Positions 10,680 through 62,200 of a DNA stretch of 64,000 nucleotides are shown piece after piece. Source of the stretch: Owenia fusiformis (lineage: Eukaryota; Annelida; Polychaeta; Sabellida; Oweniidae). Each line of letters starts with the position of its first letter. Position 1 is the first letter of the stretch. The stretch lies in NCBI GenBank assembly GCA_903813345.2, contig CAIIXF020000010.1, positions 4,889,169-4,953,168 of the forward strand, written 5' to 3'. A model generated the notes under the pieces. That model was given only the letters and a program-made list of their open reading frames with translations, searched no databases and was not told the origin of the DNA. A program made the translations under genes and the position numbers.

Positions 10680-12320
10680 CTTGACAGTTGATCCATATGT
10701 GACCCATGGTTAATCCATGGTGACATTATCCTATGTGATGGTCCAGTGACATTTATGTCACAGTTGGTTCACAGTGATATAACATCATGTGACAATAAAT
10801 CCATGGTGACATCATTTATCATTTTGTGATACTTGGTCGACAAGATTAACTCATTTGACAGAATGCTCATAGTAATAGTTGACATGGTGACATGACCTCA
10901 TCTGACAATTGGTTCTTAGTGACATATAATGTCAGGTGACAGTTAGAGAGCCATTGTGCCATTTATAATTATTTTTAATATGGTACTCCATCAGATGGCA
11001 TGCACTTATTACTCCGTGTGACAGTTGATCCATTGTGAAATAACAGATGACAGACATGCAACTCAGTGACAGTCGATCCATGGTGACATTACATTACCTT
11101 AAGGGCAGCTGATCCATAGTGACATAACCTTATGTGACAGCTGGTTCAAAATGACATTACGTTGTGTGATAGATGATCCATTGTGACATTGCATTTTGTG
11201 ACAGCTGGTTCATAGTGACATTACCTTATGTGAATACTGACCCATAGTTACTGTGACATTACCTAATGTGAATCTGATCCATAGTGACATTACCTTATGA
11301 GCTGGTTCATAGTGACATTACCTTATGTGAATACTGACCCATAGTTACTGTGACAATTCCTAATGTGAATCTGATCCATAGTGACATTACCTTATGAGCT
11401 GGTTCATAGTGACATTACCTTATGTGAATACTGACCCATAGTTACTGTGACAATTCCTAATGTGAATCTGATCCATAGTGACATTACCTTATGAGCTGGT
11501 TCATAGTGACATTACCTTATGTGAAAGCTGGTTCATAGTGATGTTACCTTATGTGAATACTGACCCATAGTTACTGTGACATTACCTAATGTAAAACTGA
11601 TCCATAGTGACATTACCTAATGTGAATCTGATTCATAGTGACATTACCTTATGTAACAGCTGATCCATAGTGACATTATCTGGCTTATTTCGTGAAAGAT
11701 GGTCAACAGCGACATTACCTTACATGACAGTTGATCAATTGTGACATTATTTTATTTGACAGCTGATCCATAGTAGCATCACAATATGTGACAGTTGATC
11801 CATAGTGAAATAACATGACAGACATGCAACTCAGTGACAGTTGATCCATGGTGACGATACTTTGTGTGACAGTTGATCCAGAATGAAATCACATTATGCA
11901 CGTTATGTGAGAGTTGGTCCATCATGTCCATGGTGACATTACCAGTTGGTCCATGAATTTACATGAGATGACCCAAAGTGACATTAGCCTATGTGACAGC
12001 TTATCCATAGTGACATTACATTGAGTGAGTTACATTATCTTATAGGGCAGCTGATCCATGAGATTATCTGGCTTATGGCGTGAATGTTGCTCTATAGTGA
12101 CATTGCCTAACATGAGAGTTGATCCATTGTGACATTATCTTATGTGACAGTTGGTCGATAGCGACATCAGCTTATTTGACAGCTGATTCATAGTAACATT
12201 ACCTAATGTGGCAGGTGATCCATAGCAACACCACAATGTGTGACAGCTGAACCAAAGTGACATTACATTATGTGAGCTAATCCACAGTAACATTTATTTT
12301 TGTGACAGTTGGTCCACATG
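10680..12320. repeat. Degenerate minisatellite upstream of DRC12
   Basis: About 1.6 kb of variants of a roughly 30-35 bp phrase built from GTGACATTACCTTATG and CAGCTGATCCATA. Inside it, 11215-11505 is a cleaner higher-order array: three successive 97-bp units beginning GTGACATTACCTTATGTGAA at 11215, 11312 and 11409, plus a partial one at 11506. Flanking units are more diverged. Nothing is encoded. Confidence 0.85.
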
Positions 12321-36500: not shown

Positions 36501-39500
36501 AGGGGTTTCTTTGATTGTCTTGGACTGGGAAGAGATCTTGTTGGTCCCTGGGACTTCGATGGGCGTTGAATCGGTAATAATATATGTATTATGTGGATCG
36601 GGCGCTATTGCTGGGGTCGGATGATCAGTCTTTATTTTTTCCTTTTCGCAGCTTTGGTTGTAAGTTTATAGGAACCTGATCTTCCTCTCGATCAGCAAGT
36701 ACGCCATAGAGATTATCACATAACTCAGATACTTTTACCTTCCCCTTTTGGAACAGATAATCCCTGAGAACATCACACTCATCTTCCTCAAGCTCTCGAT
36801 CTAACTCTTCTATCACGTCCGCTCTCGGGCCTTCAGTCAGCAGCTGAAGCGTTTGCTCAATATTGGCTAAATCCTCCCCGCTAAGCGAAGCTGTTGATTT
36901 CACGTCCGACGCCATTGAAACCGGAAGTTTCAATGGCGTTTTTATCGTGTGATCCTCTGTATTGCTACTGAGAATGTCCCCTCCTTACCAATATTTTCTG
37001 TATTGCGATGGAGATGATCAATGGAGACAATGTCAGTAGCAATACAGATTGGTACAGCACAAGAACTGACCAATCAGAAGGCTTCATTTTACAGATCATA
37101 CAATAAAGTACAATACAAAAGTTTATTAACATCCCTCTCTCAAGTTTCACTTTTATTTCAGAGAATCGCAGCTTCCAAGCATTCAGCTTGCCACAAGGTG
37201 TCCTTGAGGAAGGGTTTCTTCATTGCTACCTCAAGCAAGAAGTCCTTACCTGCAGTGTTTTCATGTGTTATCTGCCAGGAAGTATTCCCACCAGAGAAGG
37301 GTTCGGTAAGATATTCAAATTTTTACTGTGGCAAAACAAAATCTTTGTATGTTTTACATAGTCAGAGATATGAAGCATGTTATTTTGTGAATTTAACCAA
37401 TGTAAATAATTTTAAGCAGAACTAGTACATATACTAAAATCATAGATCAGGTCTATTATAAATCATACTCATTACCTTATTAAATGACCAGGCCTTATTG
37501 AGATCAAAATGAAACTCTAGCAGTTTAAAATTTAAGAAATATAACATGTTAAGGCATTCTCTCATCGATGGATATTCTGTTTCAGCTCAAAAAAGCAATC
37601 AGTCATGAAGTTGAAGAATGGGCAAAAATGTGTAAGTATATTTTATCCAATATTTACTTCTATCCAAAGCCTGATGTCCTGAAGTATTCAAACAACATGA
37701 CTTGCATTGACTTGCTTTCTGGGTCAGAACTGCTTTTTTAGGTACGATATTGTTCACCTGTTCATTCATGTAACTCTATATTTCCTCATTTGCAGGTGAG
37801 CAAGCATATGAAATTAGAAGTCAGATGTACCGTCGCTTGGTGACATTTCTTATGACATCCTATGTGAAAAGAGTTGACCATAATGCAGAATCTACGTGTG
37901 ACTTGGCTCCTTGTGCCTCCAATCCAGCAAAGGCCATACGCAAAACCCATTTCCATTGTTACAGATGCAGCTTTGCTACTACCATGGTAACTGAAACATT
38001 ATTGTTTATTTTGATGTATTTTTAATATGTATGTATTAATTAATATGGAAAAATGTACCTCAATGTCTGGATGTCATAAAACTAACATCTGAGTAAGTGG
38101 CAGAGTTTGACAGAAAAGCAGTGGCAATATTGACTTGTTTATTTAAAAGAAGCGGCATTACCTTGTTATAAGTTATTAAATGCAAGCTACCTTTAGGAGG
38201 TGTATATATAGGTTTTAGGCTAGCAACATTAGGATGATCTTTTTAATGTAGAACAATCAGATCATTTATGTGTTTATGCGTTTGTGTATGCCAAAATGGT
38301 CAAACTTAACATCTGATTTATATTATGACTAACAGAGGCAAACTTTGATGAAGTTGTCTTTTATTTGTAGATCTTGTCTGCGCTGCAGCATGTTAGGACA
38401 AAACACTTAACAAACTGGTCAGTTTACAACTTCTATTACAATGAATTCCCTTCACTATTTCAAGGTAAGTACAATGAATTTGAATTACATGATACTGATC
38501 TAGTAGTGGACTAGTTGAATGGTGAAACATAATTATGGTTTTGATGTGGACACTCATAATACACTCAAATGAGCATAGAAACAATAATACACTGTTTATT
38601 TTATACTTGTACTTCCTCTAGATTGTAGAAAATAAACATCTGTCCCAGAACGCATTCATGACACTGTAAACTTGAATATACTTTGTTTTGTATGAAAATA
38701 GGTTCCTTTGAATTTTCTTGCTTAAAAATCCATAATAGCCAGCCACATATATGTTATATCTGTTCTTAATGTCTCCAGAGTGTATAGAAAGAGAGAATGA
38801 TGCTGCTACACACACGTCATTGAGTGATGATGTCACAATGGCAGGATCAGAAGAGCTGTTCACCCGTTGCAAACAGACTGATTGTGGTGGAGACATGTGG
38901 GGAAATGTTCATTTCCATTGTAACTTCCCAATGTGCAGCACATGGACTCAGGTTGGTTTGGGAAATAGAATATACTAATAAACACGAGGCCCAAAAAATC
39001 AAAATGTGAATTGAAACAAACTAAGGCCCAGGCCCCCTTGCCCCTGTCTGTTATTAGTTTTCCAATAGTATTCCAAAAGTGACACATTTATATATGTCTA
39101 GTGTATGACCTGGGCCAATAGAAGAATACTTATTATGGAGGGTTATAATGTCCTCCCAGGATTAGTTGCTACTTTTACAGTATTTACCTACGTGATGTAC
39201 TTAGGTCCCTGGAAAAACCTAAGGGGTGCAGTAACACCTGGGGGGGGGGGGGCTCACACTATGTTCACTTACAAACTCTCTTTAAAAACATGTAGCTTGA
39301 CCTCCCTAGTCCCTAGTGAGCCTTTAGAGGGGAGGACCTGCCAGATGTTCGACATTTTGTGAATGGAGAGAATATTTTCCTTATGACTTTGTGATTTTAA
39401 ATGGTTTTTATGTCACCCCCAAAAGTGATGACAAATTGTTATGGTCTCCAACTTTTTGTGACATGTTCTGCATCCGGCGTTTGATATCTTTAACAAATGG

Positions 39501-40769
39501 CAGGTAGTGACATTTTGCATGTTAATGCTTTGTTTGTCTTGTTGTGCTATGTAATGCTCTTTGGTTTTTCCCATTTTATTTGGTACTTATGCTCACATAT
39601 TAATATTTTGTATTTGTTTCCAGCAAGAGATGCTGATGATGGAACACATCAACAGTATACACATGGCCACCTCACTAGTGAATGACGCTGAGGATAATGA
39701 TGACACTATGGTGGACCTGACAGGGGTACAAAGTGATGACACTGGGGACAGTCGTGATACAGAGGACACTATGCCTTTAGGGCAGAGGATAAAGAAGTTG
39801 AAGAAAAAATCTCAGTTGAAACCCAAACAGAAAATAACTCTGATTGCATCAAAGCCTGAACTGGATATTGGTGTAAAAGATGATGTTATGAAACATTCTG
39901 AAACATCTGTGAATGACAGCACAAATATCAAAGAAAATGAACTCAATGCAGAGCTCAGTGATAATGATCGCAATAACCTGTCAAATGATGGTAATGATCA
40001 TGAGTGCAGTAATGAAAATGAAAGCAATGAGACTGTTGGAGTTGAGAATGTGTCAGATGATGGTGCAGAACAAAGCAAAGAGACCATCACACACCACACA
40101 AAGGTCACCAGTGTTGAATCTCCAGCTAAAGACAAGATTGAGTTCATGAAACTCACTGCTTTGAATGAAGATGAACAATCGGAAAGTGAAGATGAATCAG
40201 ACATTGATGCTGGATCAGATAATGATCCTGAATCAAATGATGGTGCTGATTCAGATAATGATGTTGATTCAGATGATGAGGTTGAAACAGATAATGATGC
40301 CAATTCAGATAATGATGCTGATTCAGATAATGATCCTGATTCAGATAATGGCGCTGAATCAGAAAATGATGCCGAATCAGATAATGAGGGTGATACAGAT
40401 AATGATGCTGATTCAGATAATGATGCTGATTCAGATAATGAAGTTGAATCAGATAATGATGCCAATTCAGATAATGATGCCGATTCAGATAATGATGCTG
40501 ATTCAGATAATGATGCTGAATCAGATAATGAAGTTGAATCAGATGAAGATGGAGATGGAGAAAAAAATGAAAATGATTCAAATCATTCAGATATTGATGC
40601 TGTCGATGAATCGGATAATGATGAATCAGACAATGAACATGAACGAAACAATGATGATGATTTAGATGACGATGATATATTGGATTATGATGATGATGAA
40701 CAATCTGTCATTGATGAGGATTCTGAAATGAAAGAAGAATTTGAAACAAGTGACATGGAGATTTCCTGA
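21524..40769 (+). CDS. Castor-type zinc-finger protein, about 2,525 aa
   Basis: Large nuclear regulator. Coding exons: 21524-21578, 21752-21865, 22327-25468, 25849-25993, 27253-27432, 28122-28625, 29103-29171, 29460-29706, 30070-31206, 31637-31827, 37162-37305, 37586-37631, 37796-37986, 38371-38464, 38779-38951 and 39624-40769. All phases agree and end at one stop. Five fingers follow the castor/CASZ1 plan: a CxxxC-type half, then HFHC or HYHC, then C and a distal HxxxH. Examples are [20 protein letters not shown] (about residue 1122), [27 protein letters not shown] and [10 protein letters not shown] (about 2125). Each finger is cut by an intron just after its second cysteine pair. An AT-hook, [10 protein letters not shown], lies near residue 1320. 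The 3.1-kb third exon encodes a low-complexity acidic region of about 1,050 aa. The C-terminus (about 2335-2452) is an Asp/Ser/Asn repeat. CASZ1 itself is shorter with finger clusters, so this may be a divergent relative. Confidence 0.7.
22069..22200. repeat. GTCACCAC-ended dispersed repeat, copy 2
   Basis: ATGTCACCACTGCATTCTG at the left, AACAAATGGCAGGTGGTGAC and ATTTTGCATATTAGTGCC at the right. Same ordered phrases as the copies at 39408-39525 and, inverted, 59890-60010. Confidence 0.6.
25972..27219 (+). repeat. 43-unit 29-bp array that begins in an exon end
   Basis: The unit reads ATGCAAATACATGAGCTTAC plus nine more bases (AAGYATGAT). Unit 0 (25972-26000) is the last 22 coding bases of the first finger exon plus the first 7 bases of its intron, including the functional donor CAG/GTAAGAT. 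Unit 1 is 30 bp. All later units are 29 bp, up to a final one at 27191. Units 0, 1, 2 and 42 keep ACAGGTA; the bulk carry ACAAGTATGAT, ACAAGTATAAT or ACAAGCATGAT. Nearly every unit holds ATGCAAAT, the octamer bound by POU factors. The length is not a multiple of three, so it is not a coding repeat. Confidence 0.95.
28722..28871 (+). repeat. 25-bp minisatellite, six units
   Basis: Six units of 25 bp, containing CATCTGTGATTACTACATGT and ATCTA, lie in an intron of the castor-type gene. They are nearly identical, with one unit reading TTCATG. Confidence 0.9.
32477..33463 (-). CDS. LINE ORF2, C-terminal part
   Basis: This frame holds the region after the reverse-transcriptase core (the thumb, with [20 protein letters not shown], and the connection) and a terminal cysteine-histidine motif ([20 protein letters not shown]), typical of the zinc knuckle at the end of APE-type LINE proteins. 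It overlaps the preceding long frame by a few bases in another frame, so one frameshift near 33450-33540 separates it from the rest of ORF2. The stop is at 32477. Confidence 0.85.
   Translation of the reverse strand: MISRSKRKFFSLLGLGANVGGLNPLLASKLYWSFCFPTMTYGSSVTQYSITEIESMEDAHRSIGKRIQSFPVNTPDPMAIKPLGWLSVQARIDVDRLMFIWFFLSLPVQCIYKIVCIYRLLSIIHIGTYRSSKSPLVSMWETTMKYDLHGDVLNMITTAKTPLKCVWKRKVMNVVKSFEMRRFFVLSSLYPTLRPILKCFTVLKPFLWWEVARRFPRRLPQCKVIMRMISGTYRIFNYGQPMSERVCLILCNLNVTEDVQHFLLLCPAYIDIRYNLFSELYKLGVNNFCEFICFIFGGGSEYDPEKMLPLLDTIYEMHKRRDYLLKSL
33447..36485 (-). CDS. LINE ORF1 tail and ORF2 endonuclease-reverse transcriptase
   Basis: One open frame of about 1,012 codons. Its first 190 residues look like the end of an ORF1 protein (low-complexity, then [20 protein letters not shown] and [17 protein letters not shown]). 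The APE endonuclease follows from QWNANG, with GDINANFG and [10 protein letters not shown]. The reverse transcriptase has the motifs [44 protein letters not shown] and the catalytic [14 protein letters not shown]1 and ORF2 run in the same frame here without a stop between them. The true N-terminus is upstream in another frame (36625-36915). Lies inside an intron of the castor-type gene, in antisense. Confidence 0.9.
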   Translation of the reverse strand: MLTSPSNVSDNASHLPGKEWMVWASNQTYKKQKIAAKSAHVSPPTQPAPQSQNARALRGAPVDNNVYSKRTIKGKQFERYKYLYLENVFQDEHDTDDDICDDVIKFGYEHGVKIMYCHVVHNRMSYTHVGCKIAVVESNFQQTMIIDWPDPIGMNIKGLEVELLMPMINKSINAKYQKITMKHLIILYCILIMVIFTQWNANGIHSSEIYLRELLKRSHNVAVSEHRLYECNLNKLNDIDRDFECLAYSSSLLNPMNCGISWGHGGIALFWRKTFKNAISPVREFCTDRIACIKIEGDTPLYVFSVYLPQASCKNESFEDVVIYLENCIYKCVATGYVILLGDINANFGNLFQTKRAHGTCTVNGKMMYNCMLRNGLTSLDLQSRTSGPCYTYESGTGYKSYIDHILVSEELLPACLSCKVLADSFTIGCGHLAIESEIDLPSILMQKSSPCASIKPSFAWHKLTDQLKGDYTNDVDTQVKRLISDISKLNVIDKAVIDAYFSRLENLLLEKSNLYVPIKQFCKHQKPFWNVELTELVRKRKLAWREWVRAGRPRDCSNVFRRAFKNAKRAFSKLYNLMKNEYELAQLDNLYYADDLDQNMFWHLVNKSRLYVKKSGKSIRNDNGQVITDPVEVCQEWKLYFSRLASYDKRDIFNSDFEKYVNDDISRMELNCMNNFDGIFDNGISECDVKKSIGKLNMKKAAGHDSINSEHVKYAGENIVSLLTILFNAMIANVYIPENFCLGILLPLLKSGNKDSLNKDHHRGITLMTIFRKIFDNIVLWKITGVLQGRIPQLQGASIKGCSSLQTSLIVQEAISHQENGTIMALMDIKKAFDSTWIRGLFHKLYNCGINGLYWRLLYQSYNKYKCKVFVDGILSDTFPVNRGVHQGGICSMFLYQFFIADLLQQLVDSAKGVRIGETSVACPAYADDIALIANNPENLNALLSIADMYSKMWRFEFHPGKCVVLRFGTNKNAFCECKLGEYSKSRKIRYTCWHTFRQKLRACIKFDFTQ
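36625..36915 (-). CDS. LINE ORF1, N-terminal part
   Basis: Begins [20 protein letters not shown] at 36915, only about 20 nt from the element's 5' end. It is rich in charged helix-forming residues ([20 protein letters not shown]) and ends in a basic stretch (KLRKGKNKD). The text that follows continues in the frame of the long ORF, so this is probably the start of ORF1 cut by one frameshift near 36625. No RNA-binding motif is visible in this part. Confidence 0.7.
   Translation of the reverse strand: MASDVKSTASLSGEDLANIEQTLQLLTEGPRADVIEELDRELEEDECDVLRDYLFQKGKVKVSELCDNLYGVLADREEDQVPINLQPKLRKGKNKD
39240..39251 (+). repeat. G-homopolymer tract
   Basis: A run of 12 or so G in an intron of the castor-type gene. 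Similar tracts on the same strand lie near 16273, 47168, 62871 and 63170. Confidence 0.8.
39408..39525. repeat. GTCACCAC-ended dispersed repeat, copy 3
   Basis: TTATGTCACCCCCAAAAGTG, TTGTTATGGTCTCCAAC, AACAAATGGCAGGTAGTGAC and ATTTTGCATGTTAATGC appear in the same order as in copy 2. It lies in the last intron of the castor-type gene. Confidence 0.6.
40195..40545 (+). repeat. 18-bp coding repeat (D-A-D-S-D-N) in the castor-type gene
   Basis: About twenty in-frame units of GATTCAGATAATGATGCT or close variants encode an acidic Asp/Ser/Asn hexapeptide repeat in the C-terminal tail. Variants swap A for V, P, E or G. Codon usage is almost invariant (TCA, GAT, AAT), so it grew by recent slippage or unequal exchange. 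Confidence 0.9.
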
Positions 40770-43326: not shown

Positions 43327-44347
43327 TATATTATTGTCTTATACTGTTTAATCTTATTTTGTGATTATTAAAACAATACATGAAAGAACAGAAGGATACA
43401 AGAACCTTTCTGAGATGATTGATTGATAAAATATCAAAGATAAAAGTTGTGTTTTGTGCACAAATCGAAACTACAAATATAACAATGGCATATACTATCT
43501 CTAGCAAACTGTGTCAATACTCTCTCATGATCTTGATATATTGTTGTATCACGAATCACATTTTTAGATAAACATGTACACGCATGTAAAATGTTAAAGC
43601 CTCTTAATTTTACAATAAACATTAGGTGTATCCATTCAGATTTAATCATCATAAAAATGTTTCGAATTTCAATTTTAAAAAATGTTTACATTAATGAATA
43701 TTCGATATGATGTACTTTGCATGTATCATAATATGATATGAAATTCTCGATGTGTTAAAGACGACCCCAAATTAAGCGGGGAAACGTGTAGCATAAACTT
43801 AGGCTTCAGCAAGTGGTCGATTCCACAAATTCACATAAAAATGCAAGTTTCCATTATTGAAGAGTGTGAAAGACGAGAGTAATCACAAAATAATAAACAT
43901 GAACAAACGCATTATAAGTTTTTATATCAATTCCAAATTCATTTTAGTTTTACAATGTGATATATTTATGTCGTTGGGATACTTTTGAATATGTTCCTCC
44001 ATTTTCGCAAGACTTTTCGCAGTTTGAAAAAGTGCTATACCGTCGTCGTTTTTGCTAATGGACTGGCGTTTGTATGATAATGGAGAGAATAACAATATAT
44101 ATGAAGTTACGTGAGTATTATAATGGAGATGCTGACATTCATCACGTCTTCTTGCAATAGTAGATGATATCATTGAAGGACCTTACTCGATTGGCTATTT
44201 CGATCTAGGCCTCGAAACACTTCTGATATCATAGAGCACAAGAGTTTACTTACCTCAATGCAGTCCCGTCTTCTGCTAAGTAAAAGTGGAGAATATGGAC
44301 GTGAAACATAACAATTCCACGCTTTGAAAGGGGTGAAAAAAGTGAAT
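43327..44347. other. Intergenic DNA and likely TRIM promoter
   Basis: AT-rich sequence with no recognisable gene up to the TRIM start. The 150 bases before the start codon are its probable leader; no TATA box or other clear motif was seen. Confidence 0.4.
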
Positions 44348-45319
44348 ATGGCAATGTCTAAAGTGGATATAGGTCCTCTGAAGGACACGGTGAGCTATTC
44401 AATCTGTATGGAGACTTTAGATGATCCCAGATCTCTGCCGTGTATGCATGTGTTTTGCAAAAAATGTATCCAGGATGTAATGGACAGACATAAGAGGAAC
44501 TTTCCTTGTCCCATCTGCCGAGATACCTGCCCTATACCTGATCAAGGGGCTGCTGCCTTGAAGGTGAACTTTTTTGCAAACTCTGTTTTGGATGCGATGA
44601 AAGGACTCAATATTGAGGAAACAGACGAGAAGGAAACAGCAATATTGAACTGTGATAAATGCATTAAAGGTGGGAAAACTATTCCTGCTGTGTCACAATG
44701 TTTGGAGTGTGATGAGAAGTTGTGCCGATCTTGCAAGCGAAGACATAAACGGTCGCGTTTGTCAAAGTCGCACCATATACTTGACCTTACCATTGCCGGG
44801 TTCAAGTCTCTCGAAAAAGCTGCCGTCGATATGATATCGCAACTTACTATTAACTGCCGAGAGCATAAGAATAAACCACTGAAATATTTCTGTAAGGATG
44901 ACCAGCGCCTCATCTGCCAAGATTGCTTTGCTTTCAACCACCAAGGCCATGAATTAGAAAACATTGAGAAAGCAGGCAACGACAGCAAAGATGATATGAG
45001 CTCGGCCATCGACTTATTTCGACAGAAGTCAGACATGTACATAAAGGGAATCAAAACTGGTAATGCAGAGTTGGAAAACATGCAGAAACACATTGATGAA
45101 TCAATGGCCAAGTTGCCTAAAGGGGATCAATTGGCCAAGTTGCCAAAAGGGGAACAACTGAAAGAGTTTCAGGCTAAAGTTGCTGCGCAGATGAAGGGAA
45201 TGATGGAAAAGGCAAATAACTTGAACTCCAAATCTTGTATCGCTGATCTGGAGAGTGAGAAAAAAGCACTTGTTGGTCTTGCAAAGCAGTTAGAGACTCT
45301 AGTCACCCTACATGACTGA
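44348..45319 (+). CDS. Short TRIM-like RING/B-box/coiled-coil protein
   Basis: Single-exon frame of 323 aa. The first ATG of the frame is 44348 (MAMSKVDIGPLKD), and the next is two codons later. Residues 17-57 are a RING of the C3HC4 kind (SICMETLDDP, LPCMHVFCKKC, FPCPICR), but the first zinc ligand is tyrosine (Tyr17) where TRIM proteins have cysteine; the other visible ligands C20, C32, H34, C37, C40, C54 and C57 remain. Two B-boxes follow: CDKCIKGG...CLECDEKLCRSCKRRH and CREHKNKPLKYFC...CQDCFAFNHQGH. A coiled coil ends the protein, with a small tandem MAKLPKGDQLAKLPKGEQL. There is no NHL, B30.2 or filamin domain. Such short TRIM proteins are common in large invertebrate families. E3 activity is uncertain given Tyr17. 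Confidence 0.85.
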   Translation: MAMSKVDIGPLKDTVSYSICMETLDDPRSLPCMHVFCKKCIQDVMDRHKRNFPCPICRDTCPIPDQGAAALKVNFFANSVLDAMKGLNIEETDEKETAILNCDKCIKGGKTIPAVSQCLECDEKLCRSCKRRHKRSRLSKSHHILDLTIAGFKSLEKAAVDMISQLTINCREHKNKPLKYFCKDDQRLICQDCFAFNHQGHELENIEKAGNDSKDDMSSAIDLFRQKSDMYIKGIKTGNAELENMQKHIDESMAKLPKGDQLAKLPKGEQLKEFQAKVAAQMKGMMEKANNLNSKSCIADLESEKKALVGLAKQLETLVTLHD

Positions 45320-47406: not shown

Positions 47407-47543
47407 TATAAATCAAGCTCTCTCTTGAAAAAAGGTTACCGTGATAAACTAAATCTAAAAGTATAGACTGGTAAACTTTTCTATGGTGAGAGATAAGGCA
47501 GCTGAGAATATGTTACGCTACTCTCAACTAGCAATGTGTTAAA

Positions 47544-50500
47544 ATGGATTCGACATCGAAACAGTTAGAGGTTAAACTAAGAAGGGCTATCCAGAAAAAT
47601 AATGATGATAGCCTGAAAACAATTCTTAAAGGAATGGCTGAATGTCCGAGTGACGCATTACTTTGGATTGACAGTAATTGCGAATTAAGTAAAGGATCGT
47701 TGAAGCTGTTGATTCGCAAAGGCGCAGACGTGAATGCTACTGACGGTTTTCACAGGACTCCGTTGATTTTAGGTATAGAGAAGGAGAATGGTGATTACGT
47801 AAATGTACTACTAAAACATGGTGCAGATATCAACATAGCTGATAATCATGGGAACACTGCTTTGATAGTAGCTGCACAAGGGAACGGGTGCGATGAAGAG
47901 TTTATGAGCTTGCTTGTGAATCGAGGTGCAGATGTAAATGCTACTGACTGCAATGGACAGACTGCCCTGATGCATGTTATATCAAATGAAGATTGCAATG
48001 ACATGGAGGAGGTTGTAAAAATATTGCTTAGTGAAGGTGACGTCAATGCAAGGGACAATGATGGGAAGACGGCCTTATTACACGCAATATCAGTGGAAGA
48101 CCCAGACTCAGAGCTTCTGGAGTTCCTTTTCAAAAGTGGTGCAGACGTTAATGCATGCGACAAAAATGGGAAAACAGCACTCTTATATGCAACCTCCAGG
48201 GAGGATCTGTCAAATAACTTAATTGAAATGCTCTGTGAGCGAGGTGCAGACGTAAACGCCTGTGACAGTAATGGGCTGACTGCCTTATTGCATACACTCT
48301 CACACGAAGAGCTTGATGTAGATTGTATCCGTACCTTAGTCCATCAAGGAGCAGATATCAATGCCTTTGATGACACCGGAAAGTCCACTCTGCTATATAC
48401 AATTTCCAGGGACATAGAACTTGCGACACATTTAATCGACCAAGGTGCAGATGTCAATATCCGGGACAGTGATGGCAAAACTGCGTTGATGCATGCTCTC
48501 TCAAGCAAGGATATTGATATGGAATGTATACGCATGCTGTTACATCAAGGTGCAGATGTCAATGTTGCGGATGACGAGGGAAAAACAGCCTTACTGTATG
48601 CTTCCTCAAGAACATTCCTCGATATGGAAGTGATAAGTTTACTTATAGATAGTGGCGCAGATGTCCAGCGTTGCGATGAACATAGAAAATCTGTTTTAAT
48701 GAACGTCGTATCCGGGGGAAAACGGGGAAAGTATCAAGAAGAATGTATTGGCCTATGCATCGCGTACGGTGCACCTGTTAACGTGGCTGATGCCAGTGGA
48801 ATGACTGCCGCGATGTATGCAGTAATAGGAGAGAGGGGAAATTCAAGACATCTCAGTCTTCTTCTCGATAACGGTGCAGACGTCAATGCCGCAAACCAAA
48901 ACGGGCAAACAATGTTGATTCAAGCCATATCAGGAACTGAAAAGCAAAAAGAATGTACTTCTCTTCTCATAGCATTTGGTGCTGATGTTAATGCCAGGGA
49001 TAACGTTGGGAGAACTGCACTGATGTATGCTGTAGCTGGCAATGCTGGAAACACTAAGTATGTCGATCTTTTAATGAAAAACGAAGCGGATGTTAATGCA
49101 AAAGATGAAAATGGAAGGACCGTTTTGATGTATGCCGTATCTGGAGATCAAACAGAGACATCTTCGAGGACGGTAGATATTGCAGACACGGATAATGGCA
49201 ATGACAATAATTTTAGCCTAAAATGTGCAAATCTTCTCATAGATAATCATGCCGGTGTGAATACCAGAGCAAAGAATGGGAACACGGCATTGATATATGC
49301 TATAAAGGAGGAAGACCTGGAATGTATTAGACTTTTAGTAGCGTATGGAGCAGATGTTAATGCATGTGATGAAGCTGGCAAATCAACTCTGCTTCTTGCT
49401 TTAGAGGGAAAGATACGTCCAAAAGAAATGGCAACTGTGTTAATTGACCTCGGCGCAGATGTTAATACAATTGATCCCATAGGAAAAACAGCGTTGATGT
49501 ATGCTGTTGAAAGTTTATCAGAAGAGGATTTAGACTTGGAGTTTGCGAGCCTTCTTTTGGACCGTGGCGCCAACGTCAATTCTGAAGACCTTACTGGGAA
49601 GACTGCACTGCTATACGCCCTATCAAGGAACGATATTGGGACGCAATTTGCAAGGCTCCTTGTGTTGATGTTCGGTGCGAATATAAATGTCAAGGACAAC
49701 ACTGGGAGAACTGCATTGATGTACCCTAAAGCGGAAAAAGAAGGAACAGAGTTTACTAAACTCTTGATCAAACGGGGAGCCGAAATCAATGTTGCTGACA
49801 AGCATGGAAAGAATGCCTTGATATATGCCGCTATGTCCAGAAAGAGGTACATACTTGAAGCTCTTCTCGATCACGGCCTGGATGCAAATATAAGGGACAA
49901 TGAAGGAAAGAGTGCGTTGATTTATGCTGTTTCAGGAGACAACCTTGACAAAAGATCAAGACTAACCAGAGTTATGTCAGTAAATGACAGTAAAGATGAC
50001 AAAGCTGCAAATGGCAACAAGGACAGATCGGAAGACGAAGAAAATGAAAATTCTGATGAAAGCGATGCCACAAGTAAAGAAAGTGAGGATGAAGATGATG
50101 AAGACGACGACGACGACGACAGCGACAGTGATTTTGGTGATTTAGATCAGAACTTATCTGATTCTGCGGAGGATACTAGTGCCGACCGTGCAGAATGCGC
50201 CGTTCTCCTTATCACATACAATGCACATGTCAACATAAGCGACAAATACGGAAAGACGGCGCTGATGTATGCTGTATCCGGTGAAAACATTGCTTTTTCT
50301 ATGGATGACATAGACAATGAGCCCAAATCTACCGCTAGTATTTTGGTTCATCATGGCGCAGACATCAATGCTAGGGACGAGACTGGTAAAACGGCAATAA
50401 TACATGCTGCGAGATGGAACAACTTACCATGTGTGCTTTATTTTGCGATGTACGGAGCAGATGTGAATGCTGTTGACAATTCGGGTAGGACAGTGCTCAG

Positions 50501-53500
50501 CTATACGCAAGGGTTCACCAGAGGCCTACGATTCATGTATTGCTATCTGACCGCAATGGGAGCCGAGGACGCCGACTACAAACAGTTGATGCAGCTGAAC
50601 CCAAACGCAACCGCCTTTCAGCAAGAACAAGCGAAACAAAAGCTCAAGGCCTGGAAAATGAAAACAAAGCTAAGTCTGCAAAGCCAAGCAAGAACATCAA
50701 TTTTCCAGTTTACCGTATCGAACAAGCAGAGTTATTTTCAGTATGTGGAACATATTACGGATAACATGCCCGATCATTACGAAATGTGCTGTACCGATGA
50801 TCAGATAGAGGAGCTCGTCAGCGTGCTGTCTTTTCTGAAGGATTACGAAAATATCAACAAAATAATACAACCTCTGCGCAACAGCAACAAATCGGAGACT
50901 GCCCTTAATGTAAATCAAAACGAAGGTATGGCTAAAAAGTGTTTGTCAATTGTCATCTTATGAATGCATATGTTTTGCAATTTGATGTCAGTATGTTTAA
51001 TCATGGCAGCGACCTAAGTGTAGCATTTTATCTGTTTATTTCATCATGTCAATACAATATAATCAAATTAGTTTTGATTAATTAGATTCTAAAATACTCT
51101 GTAACCAAGTGGTGACATTTTGACATTGTTCTAACCTTGTTCCATTTTGCAATCGGTTCTTCTCTGGTGAAATATTTTTGCATATATTATTTCCAGTGAA
51201 ACTGGCTGATATCCTCAAACACAGAATTGGAAAGCAGTTCAAAAAGGGAAGAAAGGTCAAACAAGATGAGAAGATTTATTCAAAGAGTTCAATCCACAAA
51301 TCCAATGTACAGTATGAAAGGATGGGGATTGCAGTAATGCGGCCATTCATTGACTTTACCAAATGTGTAGGGCAAGGGGGCTTCGGTAAAGTGTACAGAG
51401 GTATCTTGTTAATATTTGTGCATGCTAATTTTTGAGATAGTACAAGAAAACAAATTACAAAAATTAGCCCTAAACCTGACAAGGTCGTTTTCATAACTTT
51501 ATGAGTCATATAAAATTAAACCCAATCAGAGCATTCATATTATTTATATATGTATTGACATTCTAATGAAGTAGAATGGTATTTTAGGGGAAGGGAGTAC
51601 ATTTTCTACAAAAATTGAAGTCCATGGATTTTTATGCAAATGGGGCATTTTTGATGAATCAAATGTGTACACTTTCTTTCCAAAATACACGAGAGGGTCA
51701 ATTATGTTATATTTATCCTAGCGTTTAAACAGATCAGATGTATCTTCATTCAATAAAGAATTACGAAGTATGACCTTAAAATTAAAAGAAACTAATAGCA
51801 ATCTCGAAACGACTTTTTCAAAAAGCCAAGACTACTATTTTGAAACTTTTTTTTAGGGAAGAGTCGATATCGGAATGTTCAGGTAGTCGTAAAGATATCT
51901 CAGGAGGTCGCATTGGGTACCTCCAGATCGACCACATATACAGCTTCACAATTCAAAAGGGTATGCATACTTTCTAAAAACAAATTTCATTGCTCAGTTA
52001 GTCTAGCTGGCTGCAATTATGAATGATGTTTTGTTTTGAAATAAATCAGCTTCATATATTATAAGTTATTGAATGATTTGAAGTGCAATACAGAATATAT
52101 TCTGCTCGAGAAATTATGTACTGGTACGAGGCGGAAGTCGAGTGCCAATACAGAATATCGAGCGCAGAATATATCGTATATTGCAATTTAAATCATTCTA
52201 TCGTTTTTATCGTGTGATCCACTGTTTTTCTACTGAGATTTTCCCCTCCGTACCAATATTTTCTGTATTGAGACAGAGATTATCAACGGGGACAATCTCA
52301 GTAGCAATACAGATTGGTACAGCCATGGGCTTCTAGTTGAAAGCCCATGGTACAGCACAAGAACTGACCAATCAGAGAGCTTCATTTTACAGATCATACG
52401 ATAATTTAGTGTTTCGATTGATACACTGAACGATACTTCTTGTCCATGACACCTCATGGGGATAAAAGAAAATCACATAACGCCCGACATTCCTAAATTA
52501 AAGTTTAATGGCAGCTACATACGCATACGAACTCCCTAATGTGACAATCTTTTCATTCATTTTACTTGTAGGAATTGTTGACTGCTCCAATCAAGAATCC
52601 GTTTATCGTACCAATATTTGCAGTAACAGAGGAAGTTGGGTAAAGTATATTATATATGATTAGATAGGATTTGTCAATCCCCATCAAATTGACCAGGTAG
52701 TCCTCTTTCAAAGCTAAGTAGTGTTCATCTTGTTCAGCATACTTTCTGTTAAAATGTGTTGCATGTTTTTCATGTCTGGATTGAAGGTTTTTACGTTTAC
52801 AGGAAACCGTATCACATCATGTATCCCTACATGGAGGGGACTGACTTGGAGAAGAGATTGTTCAAATGCCAAACTGGGAAAGAGTTAACATGGAGACAGA
52901 GAGTGCAGATTGCATGCCATGTATCACAAGGTCTTTTAGCTTACCACAAAATAGTTCCTGGGGTCAGGTGCGATTATTATACATCAAAATGAATAAGAAA
53001 AAAACAACCGAAATAGAGCAAGTCATTCAGAAATCCAAACCCCAATACATTTTGAGATTTAGTAAAAGCATGGGACGGCGGCGGCGTATGAATAGAAGTT
53101 TTTAATTTTGGACATCTTTTTGAATAATTTTTGATTTGTTACTATGGAAACACTGCATTTTTAGGATATGAACATATGCAAAATAAGTGATTAACCACCA
53201 AATGCTATTTTAATTTACAAAGAAACAAGCCGATCCTCCATAGAGATATCAAGCCTGGGAATATTCTTCTCGACAAAAACGACAATGCATGCCTCTCAGA
53301 TCCTAGTTTGGCAAAGGAGATGGATGCCAAGAAAACCCACGTGTCTGGGGTTGTAATAAGTGGGACTAATGGATACATCGATCCAGACATATACGAGCGT
53401 TACCTAAAGGAGAAACAAAAGTATACCTTCTATGCAAGGAACGACGTGTACAGTTTTGGTATAGGTGTGTTTTGTGATATCATAATTCGACCCAAAAATT

Positions 53501-56500
53501 AAATAATTTCATTCGTGTTAACTCTGGTCATGAATGACAACGTCAGTCCAAGCTGATACAAGGTTTTTAAAAGTGTATGTTACGTAATTGAATCTATCTA
53601 TTTCAGTGATGCTGCAAATGTTGATGCAGATGGGTCCTCTGATAGACGATGGTGGTCAGCAGCCTCTTGTGACGTACTTGGAAACCCAAAACATTTTGGA
53701 CTTTAATCCAAATGTATCGCTGAACAATAATGTTTCCTCACTGTCTGAGCAGGCAGCCAATGTAGGTGTATATATCAATAGACCATTTTAGTTTAGTTTA
53801 GAAATACAAATTGTCATTCTAAAATTTCTGTCTCACCACCAGACTTTTTGAATTATGGAAAATCCGAAAGCGGTGGATGCTGAAACAAAAAGACGTATTG
53901 CGAACTGATCTGTCAAGAATATCAAAGATTTTAACGGGTAAGCAAAATTAGATTTAACTTTGATTGTACTTTTGCAGATGTGGCCAAGAGGAGATGATGG
54001 CGATGCTGTTTATACGAGAAATTTTTGTGAAATCATATTGCAAGCTTTTCATAGCGATACAGAAAAGAGGATTCCACTCGATAAAATTTGCAAAGAGCTA
54101 AAGGTTAAGTAGAGAACACGAATATCATTATAGTTTAGGTAGTTAAATAAAATACAAAGTAACGAACTAAATGTATCAGGTCATCAGACTGTCCAGCGAC
54201 CTTGAATAAAGTCTGGTATACGTAAGGAAATATCATACCTGTCAATCTTTTGTCGATAAAAACAAAATTTCAGAAGAGAGGAGTGAGTCAAAAAACCTCA
54301 TCGTTAAAAACTAAATAATAGGGAGTTTAAGCTTGCAGTGTTTTACTCAACCTAAACGCGAACGGAATATATTTCAGCGATGCATTTTTATGGGCGATTG
54401 GCCGAACGTATAGGTTTGCGTTTCGATTTTTTATGCAAGCTTAAACTCCCTAATAATTGTTGAAAAGTTATCATATTTGAGCTTGTTGGTTTTAGGAGTT
54501 GTGCAAGAATATAGGTCAAGCGCGATTTAACTTTCACATTGACGATTTGAAAGTGTGCGTTGGTTGCAAGGTCAACACGATAGGTAATGCTAGGAAAAAG
54601 AAAATTGTTCAACTATGGGCTATGTATCTTAAAAACATGTTTTCTAAAGGAAATGTAATGGATTTAAATTACAACATTGATGAGAAAAAATGTTGCGAAA
54701 TATGTTCTGATGCACGATTCATTTGATTAATTCTTTAAAATCGACCCTTGGCCGCAACATTCTACCGCCTTGCATGTTTTCGAAAACCATAAGGTTCATT
54801 AATCTACATTTAGGCTATTTTGAAAAACCAGATGGTAGTGTACGAATGTAACATAATTGCCTCATTTGGAACATTAACATAATACTGTACAAATGCAATT
54901 TTTCTCAGCAAAGGGTTTGAGCTTGCGTTCTCCAAGATGCAAAACGCCTTCAGCACCCTGTTGTTTCTACTGCAAAGAGTGCTATCTATTGGCGTACAGA
55001 AACCCCCTCGTGTGCCCAATGCATGGTCCAGCAGAGCCACCTATAGGTAAGCTACTATTAATCTAAGATAAAGTCAAGAACATAGCTTGGTAAGGTTGAT
55101 ATCGATTTCTTGAATTAAAGGATATCCAAAAAATCGTTGAACCACCTTGCGTCCATTGCATATAGGATACTGCCTATGTTATAGGACATGGAAACACTTA
55201 TGCAGTGGTGGTTGCTGGCTACCACACAGACGCCAAAGGGGACGTTGTGCCAGGTGGTGACACAGTGTTTGCAAGAGACGCTATAGGAATATCAAATGCA
55301 TTGAAAGATAGTAGGATGATCGGCGGTTTAAGGTGACGTGTTCTTACACTGTACAGTACCAGTACAAGGGGCGGAAAAGCGTAGAGTATTTCCGTCGAGT
55401 ACAATGGGAAATACATTTCAAAAACCGCTGTTTTATTCAAAAATAAGTAGAATCTTTTTTTCAAAATCATAATATTTTTTTTGGTTAGCCCTCGAAAAAT
55501 GAGATGGCTGACTGCCATTAAATGCTATCACCAAGTACTGCAGAACTGGGAACGTGATGAGCGTATTGGCAAAGAAAGGAATTAAAAACGCTCACAGACG
55601 ACAGAATAAAACTACACCTTCCTGTTTTCGAACGAAAATACTCTTCGTGCTTCCATCCCCTGCCTTATACTCAAGAAATAATCGAATGCACACTTGCTCA
55701 CGTTGCATGTTTTTGAGGCAAATTGGCTTTTAAACCTTATTGAATACTTTAATTTTAGGGAAGGTGTACATCTCTTCACTTTCACCCCAGCAAAAGGTAA
55801 CTGCACTTCAAAAGCAATTCTTCATCGAATCAAAGAATTAGGAGCCAAGATAGCAACGTTACCGGATGCTACATTTATATTCTATTATTCTGGCCATTGC
55901 AACGGGGACGATCTCTTCCTCAAAAATGGCGAATCTATTGAAAAGGATGACTTACGCTCTCGGTTTGAAAACATGAAGAAGGCAGTAGAAGTATTGGTGA
56001 TAATGGACTGTTGTTTCGCTGCTTCATTTGACACTTTGACTCGATCTAGCAGCCACCCCCAAAGAAATATTGACAAAATTCCCCAATCCCCAGTTCCAGT
56101 TGTCGTGAACACTGGCTTATCTATACCGATAGCTAACTCAAGCAACATTGACTTCGAAAGTTCGACTTACAAAGCACGCGCAACACCTGCCTCTACGACG
56201 CAAGCCAACACTTTTGTTCAACAGGAAACTTTAAGTCAAGGTCATAGTTCCTCTGTGGAAGTCACACAAGACCAACACGAAAGCTACGCCAGTGATCAAT
56301 TCCAATCAGATAGCTCTAGATTCTGTCAAATGCAGTGGTCCGCCTCATCACCGGACCAAACATCGTCTGGCCCAAGGAAAAACAATACAGAATACAGTCT
56401 TTTTACCAAATACTTGATAGCTGGGTTACACAGTGGGTCAAAGTGCGCCTTTCAAACCACCACAGAGCATGCAAATGCAGAATGCCATATATGCGAAAAG

Positions 56501-57781
56501 TTTCGCAAATTATCTGCCGTAGAAGAATGTGTTACACTTCCAAACTTGCAAGATTACGTGTCCAAACATATGGAACTTGAGATAGATGAAAGAGGTTTGC
56601 CTAACACCCAACAGCCACAAATTGATGGATCGATGAGAGGGGTGTTTAAGATGGCATACTACAACAGTGAGCCCTTGAATGATGAATACCCATGCTACTA
56701 TGGCGAAACGTTCATTGGTACGGCTAGAATCCCAAGAACACCCGATGATTTTGGTCTACTCAAACACGAATTATGGAGCAGTTTAAATGGTAAGTAAGAC
56801 AAAATAACCAATTAACATAATATCCTACATCTAACACATCGTTCATGAATCCAATTGCTACACAAAAACGTAGTTTTGGTTTTTCTATTTAAAAAGACTA
56901 GTTTCAGGGTTTGTCGCACTCAAACCATTAATTCTTATCTTTAACAATGATTACAAAATACAATTCCCATTATACTTGGTATAGGTTAGGGCTATTGATA
57001 TTACGCTAATAAAATAGTAGTCTCTCTTTAAAAGTGACTGTTTTTTCAAGGAATTCTTCCTTGTTGTGTGGAATCTGACGATTTGGTGATTTCATCAAAC
57101 AAAATGCCTATATGTAACTCGAAAGATGTTCAACAATGCAAAGCCAGAGGACGGGCCATAGAGCTTTGCATATACAACGAGTTGAAGCAATTGACTACCC
57201 GTCATGCGGTATTTTACATGGAGAAGTCGTCCGATATTGTGCTAGAAGGCATTGATGACTGGATGATGTTCGTGAACGAACGAAACCACACAGAAAACTT
57301 ACTTCCTGGAGTAACAATGCGGAAGGTTCAAAGTGAAGTATGTAGTCGTATATTTCAAATGAAAAATTACTAGTGATGTAGTAAATGGTGACTGGTTCTA
57401 TAGATTTATATTTTTAAGTCTCCCTAAAACGATGGACGGATTTGCTTCAATAGATGTGATGGCCTTTGAGTTAAAACACCACGCCTTGTTAAAATTGTCC
57501 AGACCATCATAAGCCAACAACGCATCGTGCAATTCTAGTTTCTGGTACCTTCATTGAATTTCATTTTGTTTCAGCATCATGTCAATGAAATGGTGGGATG
57601 GTTTCAACTGTCTGTTCCCAGAAGCATCAGTATAGACTTCACCTCAGATGAGTGGTCTGAACTTGGTAAACGTGGATGCAATGAATTGCAGGATTTGATC
57701 TGGGCATGCAAACAGACACATTCTGCACTTAACATTCAAGTGTTCACTGATGGTTTCATTAAATTTAAATTGAAAGATTGA
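47544..57781 (+). CDS. Ankyrin-kinase-RING-metacaspase-like fusion protein, 2,114 aa
   Basis: Exons: 47544-50925, 51197-51400, 51857-51960, 52572-52639, 52803-52967, 53223-53464, 53607-53761, 53978-54103, 54496-54583, 54909-55046, 55185-55332, 55759-56789, 57051-57337 and 57575-57781. All are joined in frame to one stop. Exon 1 encodes 24 ankyrin repeats (consensus GADVNAxDxxGKTALxYA), with an acidic insert (about residues 810-880) between repeats 21 and 22. An IRAK/RLK-like kinase follows (about 1180-1480): glycine loop GQGGFGKVYRG, Lys1208 in VVVKIS, HRDIKPGNILLD (Asp1316), DPS in place of DFG (Asp1334), then GTNGYIDPDIY. A RING-like finger (about 1505-1555) has CVGC, CCFYCKEC and CPMHG. 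The C14 metacaspase-like domain (from about 1558) has YAVVVAGYHTDAKGD, FYYSGHCNGDDLFL (His1653) and VIMDCCFAASFD (Cys1692). A Ser/Thr-rich insert and a p10-like part (YSLFTKYLIAGL, NTQQPQIDGS) come next. The last 165 residues are unrecognised. Confidence 0.85.
52060..52406. mobile_element. Palindromic MITE, copy 2 (uninterrupted)
   Basis: Matches both flanks of the LINE-split copy at 32182-37107. The left half is a hairpin around CTCGAGAAATTATG (arms with GTGCAATACAGAATATATTC). The right half has GTACCAATATTTTCTGTATT pairing with CAATACAGATTGGTAC. The LINE-free junction ATTCTATCGTTTTTATCG is at about 52196-52213. It sits in an intron of the ankyrin-kinase gene. Confidence 0.8.
52323..52348. 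repeat. 26-bp palindromic insertion with 7-bp flanking duplication
   Basis: ATGGGCTT and AAGCCCAT form a stem around CTAGTTG. GGTACAG occurs at 52316-52322 and again at 52349-52355, while the sister copy of the host MITE has a single GGTACAG (37051-37057). So this is an insertion with a duplicated target. Confidence 0.7.
54321..54450. mobile_element. 130-bp MITE with GGGAGTTTAAGC ends
   Basis: GGGAGTTTAAGCTTGCA at the left and TGCAAGCTTAAACTCCC at the right are exact inverted repeats, flanked by TAATA-like text on both sides. The inside is GC-richer than its surroundings. A partial relative (GGGTTTAAGCTTGCATTG) is at about 15230 in RPS15 intron 4. Confidence 0.75.
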
Positions 57782-59267: not shown

Positions 59268-62200
59268 CTACATCTGGCTTTGACTCGATCTACTTCGTCT
59301 AGGCATAGTCTCATTATCTTCATTGCCATGTAAATCCTTTGTTAATTGTTCAAACAGAAACCTTGTGACTTTGAGGATCATTACGTGCATGGTATACTGC
59401 AACACTAATGCTCCCATTCCCTTATATAGTCCAGATAATCCCTCATCTAATATGATACATTTGAAACAATCTAGCATTCCCTCATAGCGTGTGATAATCG
59501 GGACAACCCCAAGTCCTGTGTCAGTGTTGTCTATAATTGTTCGGGTACCCTGTAGATGGAGCCTGTGTACCACATTTTCCAGAGGATACAAAATCACGTC
59601 GGCAAATAAGTGTCCAGTAAATGTTGCAATGAGTTCTGGGTAATAGCGTTCATACATAGATTTAGCTGGAGGAACAGTCTGTTCAGCCCCCTGGAAGTAA
59701 AAAGGTAAATTGGACAATTTGTACATTATTTCATCAATCACTATACTTGTAAAACGCATATGTTGCTGTTTTATTCCATATTTGGATGAGCTTCAATATG
59801 AGGTTTATAAAGGTTTGTAAAAACATGTATTTTCAATGGCAGATAGGATAAAGCTTTTAACCCCAACATACATCTGCCTGCGTTTATAAACAAGGCATTA
59901 ATATGCAAAATATTACCACCTGGCATTTTTACAGGCAAAGATCGCCAACGGCTGAACACCAAAATGTTAGAGACTATAACAATATGTCGCCATGTGTGGT
60001 GGTGACATAAAAAACATCATTAGAGTGTATACAAAAGGATAAATAGCTTATCTAAATGTAAATTGGATGTCATCTTGATCAATATTAATTACAAATGCAA
60101 ACAGTCCAACACTTTTGTCAACTACTTTAATAAACCTAGATTATCCTTTATTACACATTATTACCTTTGTTGTATGACTCTCACTGCGAACAGTCAGTAT
60201 AACAGTGTATTGAGCTATAGATGTGATAGCATAGTGCATCAGACCATAGCATACAGTGGGAACAACAAGCTTCCACACTGGTAGCAGCCTGGTTGACTGG
60301 GGGGTGCTCCAACTCCCTAATAGGCGTCCAAAGCCTTCTTTGATACAATCAAACACACCAGGCCTCTCACTGGCTATTTCACTCTGGAAAACAAACACAA
60401 ACAAGTGAGATATGATTTTCTTTTTGCTTGAGATATAAAGTCCAATACTTTATTGATGTGTTTTACCTTTACAATTGGCTTTCAACTAGAATCTTATTGA
60501 AAGCCCATGCCTTTACTGTATAAAGTCCCTCGTCTTCTTTTTGCAGTATTTTTGGTGGTTAGTCATTAACATTTACTATTGATGATTTATCGTGCTCACC
60601 TGTACTGTTTCCACAAGACTTGCAGCATAGAATGGGGTCGTAGCAAGAAAGCTCAATCTGAAAATAAGAAACACAATTGTATCACAATCACGTCAATGCA
60701 GTGACGTATATAAACTAAGGATATAAAACACTCTGTGTGTTTCATTAAAGCAGTTGATTGGGCACTTTCTCCAATTTTATGTAAATTAATTTCAAATTAT
60801 ATGTGGGTAGTATATATTGAAATCACTCTGTATAATGTTAGGTAATGCTTATCTCTTTATAATTGATGGTTTACAGCAGTCTGGCCTGTTTGTGCTTTCC
60901 CATGTTTTTGCTAAATCAAGTTTTAGGCCTCTGTACAAAGTTGACATCATATGTAAATAAATTGTAGGGGTTTGCGACATTTTGTTTATATTTGATACTT
61001 ACCCTTTGAGGACCATATGTTGAAGAAGTTTCTTCACGGAGCTGTGTCTGTTCACCTCCCTACAGGTATAACAGTAACAGGTTAGTGTTAGCTCATGCAT
61101 TTATATTAAGGAGTTTTACTGCATGTAATACATATAATAAAAATAAGGGGTTTACTGAAAATATTTATTTAACATCAAAACAGTTGCATACTTGCTCAAA
61201 ACAGTAAGTAAAAAATTTTGTAAAAATCAGAGAAAATCCCCTGATACCCAACTGACTTGCTGACAAATGTATACAAATTCTAATAAAAATTAGAAGGTTA
61301 CCTTGGAAATGGAGTAAATTCACTGATGCCGGCTTCTGACACAACAAATATCCCTCTCACCATAAACGTGCTTCCAATACCTTTAAACAATGTGGTGACA
61401 CTCTGAAAAAACAACATACCATTAACTCAACCTGTTATATGAATATTGTATGTCTAACTATTCAGAAATCTTTCTTATAGCAACAATAAGCCAAGAGCCG
61501 CAGTATTCCGTTTATTGAATAATCTTAGCCTTGATTTGAAACTGATGTCTCTCAAGGTCAAGCCATTTTATGTAGCCAGGTCAAGGTCAGATTGTAATGT
61601 GTGGAGTGACCTACTCAAAACATATATCATGATAATGATGTGGAACAAGGGGGAGGTGGTGACCTACCTGATTTCTCTGTATATTATATATGATGTGGAA
61701 CAGGGTGAAGGGGGTATTGTGGTACCAACTGGAAGATGGGTTCACCTAAACAGATAAAGCAAACCAATCTTAATATATTATGAAAATATAAAAAAAACTC
61801 ACAACATCTAACATAATGCATAGTAGGCCAGTATTTATATCAAATGATGTCCTTTGTTCCCTCTCATTTAAATTTTTTAAAGTAAAGAGTTCATATGAAC
61901 TTTCAATTTGACAATTCCTTTAAAATAAATATTCTCAAAAGAAAAACTGAATGCTCTTTCATATTTAAGAAATTGTATAACTAAACTGAACGACTAGTGC
62001 ATTCTGCTCATCCCATTAGTTAGATTAAACTGTAGAATATCTGAATATAGAAGGTTGTGCAATAGGAACAACAGACATAAATGTATTTTCTTCTAAATTA
62101 GAAGTAAAATGATATCATACCTGGCATTGTCTCCTCAACACTATACAAGGATGTGATAGAACATTTTCAGCAAGGACACTGTAACAAAATGAAACATCAA

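Follow-up and report, generated by a model that had tools for sequence, protein, structure and literature searches.

The window analyzed here, a stretch of 64,000 nucleotides from contig C10 of the 498-Mb genome of the annelid Owenia fusiformis, contains a gene of 14 exons (47544–57781, forward strand, as are all features of this gene) which, when joined, form a single open frame of 2114 codons followed by a stop. All 13 introns are of the GT-AG type, and direct comparison showed the product to be identical, at 2114 out of 2114 residues, to a deposited O. fusiformis protein (P0001; 2114 aa) that emerged when some 5.8 billion proteins were searched. The ankyrin-kinase-finger-protease gene is a real, single gene of O. 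fusiformis in one reading frame, as had been proposed from the letters alone (hereafter, the sequence-only reading). The annotation to which P0001 belongs is probably that of the present assembly; the genome report describes an annotation that draws on RNA-seq and splice junctions as well as on Augustus and PASA, and in which 31,678 of the 31,903 transcripts have RNA-seq backing (PMC9977687). P0001 is assumed to be among the transcripts backed in this way. From the N- to the C-terminus, the protein has about 24 ankyrin repeats, a kinase domain of the IRAK/Pelle/receptor-like kinase (RLK) type, a Cys/His finger, a caspase-fold protease-like domain and a C-terminal tail; with Pfam, only ankyrin families and the kinase were matched. 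The arrangement is not due to chance, since all 12 introns that follow exon 2 are shared with a second Owenia gene (see below) and the kinase, finger and protease are under constraint. These three parts form a core that recurs in that paralogue and in acorn-worm proteins, and residues called invariant hereafter are so in all five aligned family members, two from Owenia (the window protein included) and three from acorn worms.

Exon 1 (47544–50925; residues 1–1127) carries the start codon, the entire ankyrin array and a tail without a known domain. The array (47688–50558; residues ~49–1005) was delimited with the Pfam Ank models and a motif count; 22 copies fit one motif pattern and two more are missed by it, giving about 24 repeats, the number put forward in the sequence-only reading. 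The Ank profiles scored over their cut-offs, with Ank_2 as the best ankyrin-family match (E 4.3e-115), and an acidic low-complexity insert (residues ~806–885) interrupts the array. With NCBIfam, many ankyrin- and kinase-named models matched below cut-off; a model named PA4642, the exception (84.3 bits against a cut-off of 50), has no individually significant stretch and was set aside as repeat cross-talk.

The kinase domain (51352–54094; residues ~1180–1479, exons 2–8) matches Pfam Pkinase with 90.1 bits against a curated cut-off of 31.7, at E 2e-25 in the full protein and at E 7e-27 as a domain alone. Among the best 60 of 724 matches to solved kinases, the nearest by sequence were SymRK (E 1.6e-22), FERONIA and BRI1, with RIPK4 (4.8e-16) and IRAK4 (2.6e-15) lower; a profile of three family members ranked BRI1 (1.8e-36), IRAK4 (4e-32) and RIPK4 (2.6e-25) among the best 60 of 2371. 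These ranks, which do not separate IRAK from RIPK, point to a kinase of the IRAK/Pelle/RLK type, the class already assigned to it in the sequence-only reading. A Tyr occupies what we take to be the gatekeeper position, as in IRAK4/Pelle and the plant RLKs. The window protein is like IRAK4/Pelle and the plant RLKs (SymRK, BRI1, FERONIA) in kinase sequence, but differs from them in having no death domain, in carrying ankyrin repeats before and a protease after the kinase, and in reading DPS at the DFG motif. It was not classed as an IRAK, because that family has an N-terminal death domain and neither Death nor DED had a Pfam match in the protein at E ≤ 1. RIPK4 and ANKK1 also combine a kinase with ankyrin repeats on one chain, but have neither finger nor protease and show the reverse order, kinase first and ankyrin repeats last (PMC9573974). 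The residues expected of a kinase are present in the window protein: Lys1208 (the β3 lysine; 51892–51894), Glu1231, His1314-x-Asp1316 within the His-Arg-Asp of the catalytic loop (1314–1316; 53239–53247), Asn1321 and Asp1334. The relatives retain the Glu1231 and His1314 positions, and three further residues are invariant: the HxD Asp, the catalytic-loop Asn and the Asp at the DFG position. By eye, the β3 Lys lies in an xVxVK or xIxIK motif in all four rows that reach the region, though in the alignment the Lys of the acorn worms is shifted by one or two columns.

The kinase is followed by a Cys/His finger (54556–55024; residues 1503–1550, exons 9–10), with C1503, C1506, C1522, C1529, C1533, C1536, C1547 and H1550 as candidate ligands. 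All eight are invariant, and their spacing, C-x2-C-x15-C-x6-C-x3-C-x2-C-x10-C-x2-H, resembles that of a RING; the third-to-fourth spacing is six in the two Owenia rows and three in the three acorn-worm rows. The stretch, as aligned, is strongly conserved and ends in NPLVCPxHG..PPIGH. That the finger serves as a ubiquitin ligase would be a guess.

The protease-like domain (55193–56659; residues ~1561–1907, exons 11–12) holds a poorly conserved insert (residues ~1706–1790). Its predicted structure is of the caspase/legumain type (clan CD), with the His after the third and the Cys after the fourth main strand, and the closest folds are metacaspases and legumains. Modeling thus suggests a caspase fold, as do a match below cut-off to the NCBIfam model caspase_w_EACC1 (E 6.5e-6; 25.8 bits against 140) and the fact that the four deposited acorn-worm homologues all exceed the Pfam cut-off for Peptidase_C14. 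The active-site motif of animal caspases, QACxG, is absent from the domain, which has DCCFAA in its place. Metacaspases are marked by an SGH motif and by an Asp two residues ahead of the catalytic Cys. This signature is invariant in the family: the predicted catalytic His1653 stands in SGH (55895–55897), and the predicted catalytic Cys1692 is the last residue of Asp1690-Cys1691-Cys1692 (56006–56014). The metacaspase style recognized in the sequence-only reading is borne out in this respect, and the Arabidopsis metacaspases 4 and 9, similar in SGH and D-x-C, count among the closest known systems. The Asp of D-x-C presumably sits where metacaspases and MALT1 have their acidic S1 residue, an analogy that would suggest a preference for Arg or Lys. 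A search of PDB sequences with the Ptychodera finger-protease part returned metacaspase 9 at E 0.15; with the window protease, the single match was an HIV protease dimer (E 0.76), dismissed as chance. A Peptidase_C14 search of the Owenia genome gave 37 matches, none of which lie on the window contig.

Searches of the Owenia genome, in which only the best candidates are scored, took the kinase and the finger-protease part as queries and found one further locus bearing the core, on contig C9, and four weaker kinase matches on contigs C7 and C1 (26–28% identity). The paralogue is the deposited protein P0002 (1412 aa; C9:26770995-26793683), reproduced exactly by exon mapping. The two Owenia proteins are identical at 464 of 938 aligned positions and alike in kinase, finger, protease and tail, including DPS, SGH and DCC, and the 12 shared introns match in residue and phase. 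Intron 5 is among them, although its acceptor (53213–53223) has the unusual sequence TTTACAAAG and the lowest of 29 acceptor scores (−1.84, the next being 6.85) under a splice weight matrix built from the other 28 introns of both Owenia genes, with intron 1 left out. The C-terminal tail (56660–57781; residues 1908–2114, exons 12–14) is common to the paralogue only (40% identity over 178 aligned codons) and is not present in the acorn-worm rows of the alignment. Synonymous sites are saturated between the two genes (proportion of synonymous differences, pS, 0.77–0.84 in the domains), so that neither a dN/dS ratio nor a date can be given. The proportion of nonsynonymous differences (pN) is 0.27 in the kinase, 0.17 in the finger, the lowest measured, and 0.30 and 0.24 in the two halves of the protease, as against 0.46 in the protease insert and 0.40 in the tail. 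From these comparisons, the core looks to be under purifying selection, and both copies look to have been kept under constraint for long.

Ahead of the core the two proteins differ: P0002 has no ankyrin repeats. Instead, Pfam gives it a DED match at E 2.8e-7 that falls short of the cut-off (31.1 of the required 35.9 bits), along with a TIR match that is weak both there (E 0.057) and against TIRAP chains in a sequence search (E 0.05). The AlphaFold model of this N-terminus (predicted local distance difference test score, pLDDT, 46) is too poor for a TIR or DED claim. Foldseek gave no match to it at E ≤ 0.001, the first rows being Gemin5 (E 8.6e-3, probability 0.72), which is unrelated, and the TIR of TIRAP (E 0.05, probability 0.99). 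We also note a tandem duplication of the paralogue's final two exons (C9:26789273-26789933 and 26793057-26793683), both sets of which are spliced serially in P0002; the P0002 model may mix two transcript ends.

Homologues outside Owenia were found in two acorn worms: P0121 and P0124 of Ptychodera flava, and LOC144435020 of Glandiceps talaboti (isoforms P0122 and P0123). At E ≤ 0.01, the protein searches returned three proteins among 4593 candidates and four among 3248, the queries themselves counted. Because candidates had to fall within a length band and share five-residue words, the core could have escaped detection elsewhere. The acorn-worm proteins share the kinase, the finger with N[P/E]LVCPxHG..PPIGH and a C14 domain over the Pfam cut-off, with 29–30% identity to the window protein in the finger-protease part; they differ in reading HLD and DVG in the kinase and in having neither ankyrin repeats nor a long C-terminal tail. 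Glandiceps has two DED stretches over the cut-off (83–84 bits in all); Ptychodera P0124, as deposited, begins within the kinase. A wider protein search gave 190 proteins at E ≤ 0.001; among the 120 listed, which include the two Owenia proteins, the non-Owenia matches span 8–30% of the query, an extent that would fit the kinase alone. In a prokaryote scan with the finger-protease alignment, 251 pattern matches led to 17 loci; for 16 of these the match starts beyond the finger, at query residue 73 or higher, and for one at residue 56. They were put down to generic bacterial caspase-like domains.

The arrangement was thought in the sequence-only reading to be without parallel. This does not hold for the core: since it occurs in other deposited, unnamed proteins, the window gene is a variant within a family and not a lone oddity. 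For the order of all the domains, a search elsewhere recovered the core in acorn worms but the ankyrin-fronted version in no relative found; ankyrin repeats are confined to the window gene among them. A kinase-caspase fusion of this kind was not found among the literature matches listed, in titles and abstract openings that cover few subscription journals. Caspase fusions as such are already known, because TNFR-caspase, LRR-caspase and death-caspase hybrids are reported from amphioxus (PMC2575513); for TRADD-N proteins, a kinase and a caspase are mentioned as C-terminal domains that can stand in for one another (PMC8195603). On sequence grounds, the kinase-finger-protease core appears to be a small animal family that we did not find described, built of domain types that are themselves known.

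In animal cell death and innate immunity, kinases, ligases and proteases are mostly separate proteins assembled on DED, CARD or TIR scaffolds, DED and TIR being clustering domains of these pathways. The RIPK1/cIAP/caspase-8 and MyD88/IRAK/TRAF6/MALT1 assemblies are made of DED or TIR, kinase, RING-type finger and caspase-fold protease, the same kinds of parts as here, but distributed over separate proteins, where the window protein is one chain. Caspases such as caspase-8, as well as MALT1, become active on being brought close together, and IRAK kinases phosphorylate each other within clusters. We favor, with moderate confidence, the explanation that the locus is a single gene of the kinase-finger-protease family in which ankyrin repeats provide the input to an immune or cell-death enzyme driven by clustering. 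The protein would most likely be an enzyme activated by induced proximity; the enzymatic activities, the order of the steps and the immune role are what we infer from its parts. The ankyrin array, which stands where relatives have a death-fold input, may serve to bind a partner or some product of a pathogen, or to bring the protein to a receptor; partner binding would gather copies of the protein. Crowded kinase domains could then phosphorylate one another and also the finger-protease part, and crowding would pair two protease domains and activate them, in the manner of caspase-8 or MALT1. The activated protease would cut after basic residues, leading to cell death or to a response of the NF-kB type. 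The role in immunity or cell death raised in the sequence-only reading is plausible in that relatives carry DED and possibly TIR; the receptor that was also suggested there is unsupported, no prediction of transmembrane segments or signal peptides having been made. Metacaspases and legumains, the closest folds, include non-immune enzymes, so an active signaling enzyme serving development, stress or protein turnover may also be considered; we regard this as rather unlikely, since the DED and possible TIR of the relatives belong to cell-death and innate-immune signaling and since plant RLKs, RIPK4 and IRAK4 stand closest among the solved kinases in the best matches listed.

Several findings weigh against the clustering-driven enzyme, both at its presumed activities and at the join between the ankyrin array and the kinase. 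For the finger of the window protein, Pfam gave nothing at E ≤ 1, RING models included, and the finger was modeled at low pLDDT, so that the model is unreliable there; nor did Peptidase_C14 (PF00656) match the window protein or the paralogue at that threshold, and the whole-protein model averages a pLDDT of 52.6. The finger-protease part, searched alone with Pfam, likewise gave no match at E ≤ 1. The Pfam check suggested for the joined protein in the sequence-only reading therefore succeeded for Ank and Pkinase but not for RING and Peptidase_C14. The RING-like finger proposed there retains its RING-resembling spacing and invariant ligands; because the resemblance is one of spacing and no RING model matches, a RING-type ubiquitin ligase step is unproven. 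In the kinase, DFG is replaced by DPS in both Owenia genes and by DVG in the acorn worms, and HRD by HLD in the three acorn-worm rows; because of DPS and HLD, canonical kinase activity is not assured, and these changes could mean weak or no catalysis. They would suit a pseudo-enzyme scaffold, in which the kinase and protease folds serve assembly with little or no catalysis and the ankyrin repeats, as in other ankyrin arrays, are a docking surface. Against such a scaffold speak the invariant Asp of HxD, loop Asn and DFG-position Asp, the β3 Lys in four of four rows, the invariant His and Cys of the protease and the apparent purifying selection on the core, and we consider it, too, rather unlikely.

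The join rests on intron 1 (50926–51196; 271 bp), the sole join to which nothing in the paralogue corresponds. The intron cannot be placed on that gene, whose exon at this point is unbroken (residues 167–433). The tail of exon 1 has no detectable similarity to the DED regions of the paralogue (653 and 483 of 1000 shuffles, for two cuts, reached the score) or of Glandiceps (597 of 1000), which leaves exon 1 without a comparative tie to the kinase. The ankyrin-to-kinase join, which relies on the quality of its splice sites and on the deposited model, is the least secure step of our reconstruction. The open frame of exon 1 (47532–50960) moreover meets an in-frame stop (50961–50963) 35 bases beyond the donor, so that a single-exon ankyrin gene (47544 to this stop) and a separate kinase-finger-protease gene might have been wrongly joined, which would also fit the absence of an ankyrin part from the paralogue. 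We judge this very unlikely. With the matrix from which intron 1 was excluded, its donor, AAG|GTATGG, scores highest among the 182 GTs that exon 1 and intron 1 contain, and its acceptor does so among the 23 AGs examined from 50940 to 51360; the frame continues across the join and the deposited model agrees. The sequence-only reading had named poly(A) and promoter activity between exon 1 and the kinase exons, with no spanning reads, as evidence against the fusion; within intron 1, neither AATAAA nor ATTAAA was found. A single transcript spanning intron 1 is thus the inferred structure.

The difference between the two Owenia genes has the look of an input-domain swap that spared the effector half and its introns, the input having probably changed from DED/TIR to ankyrin repeats by duplication and replacement of the 5' exons. 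A wider proposal, which we hold to be tentative and on balance unlikely, is that the core is an unrecognized, ancient bilaterian machine whose IRAK-type kinase, E3-type finger and metacaspase-like protease would deliver phosphorylation, ubiquitin transfer and proteolysis from a single clustering event, with TIR, DED or ankyrin inputs that can be swapped; it would have survived in an annelid and in acorn worms but have been lost, or have gone unseen, elsewhere. Were it true, this would be, to our knowledge and leaving MALT1 out of account, the first protease domain of metacaspase type that acts in animal innate immunity. With a kinase and a caspase-fold protease on one chain, activation of a caspase-like enzyme in cis by a kinase would become open to test, and a conserved family would extend the animal repertoire by a metacaspase-style protease. 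Among the proteins returned, the core is spread over one annelid and two acorn worms, an odd pattern that could stem from ancient loss or from later transfer.

Elsewhere in the window, a TRIM-like open frame with RING and B-box (44312–45316, forward strand; zf-B_box E 8.1e-12, zf-RING_UBOX E 4.9e-10) lies about 2.2 kb upstream of the ankyrin-kinase-protease gene, on the same strand. A retroelement of the long interspersed nuclear element (LINE) type, with endonuclease and reverse transcriptase (33450–36665, reverse strand; RVT_1 E 1.3e-22), is adjoined by an open frame taken from the open-frame list (32480–33541, reverse strand). An open stretch of 1064 codons (22278–25469, forward strand) had no Pfam match at E ≤ 0.001. 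Three tandem arrays were recorded, with units of 32 bases (22 copies; 11091–11808), 29 bases (43 copies; 25972–27216) and 18 bases (about 20 copies; 40193–40544), the last within a long open frame (39555–40766). An open stretch at 59271–59792 (reverse strand) matches a mitochondrial carrier (E 4.5e-10).

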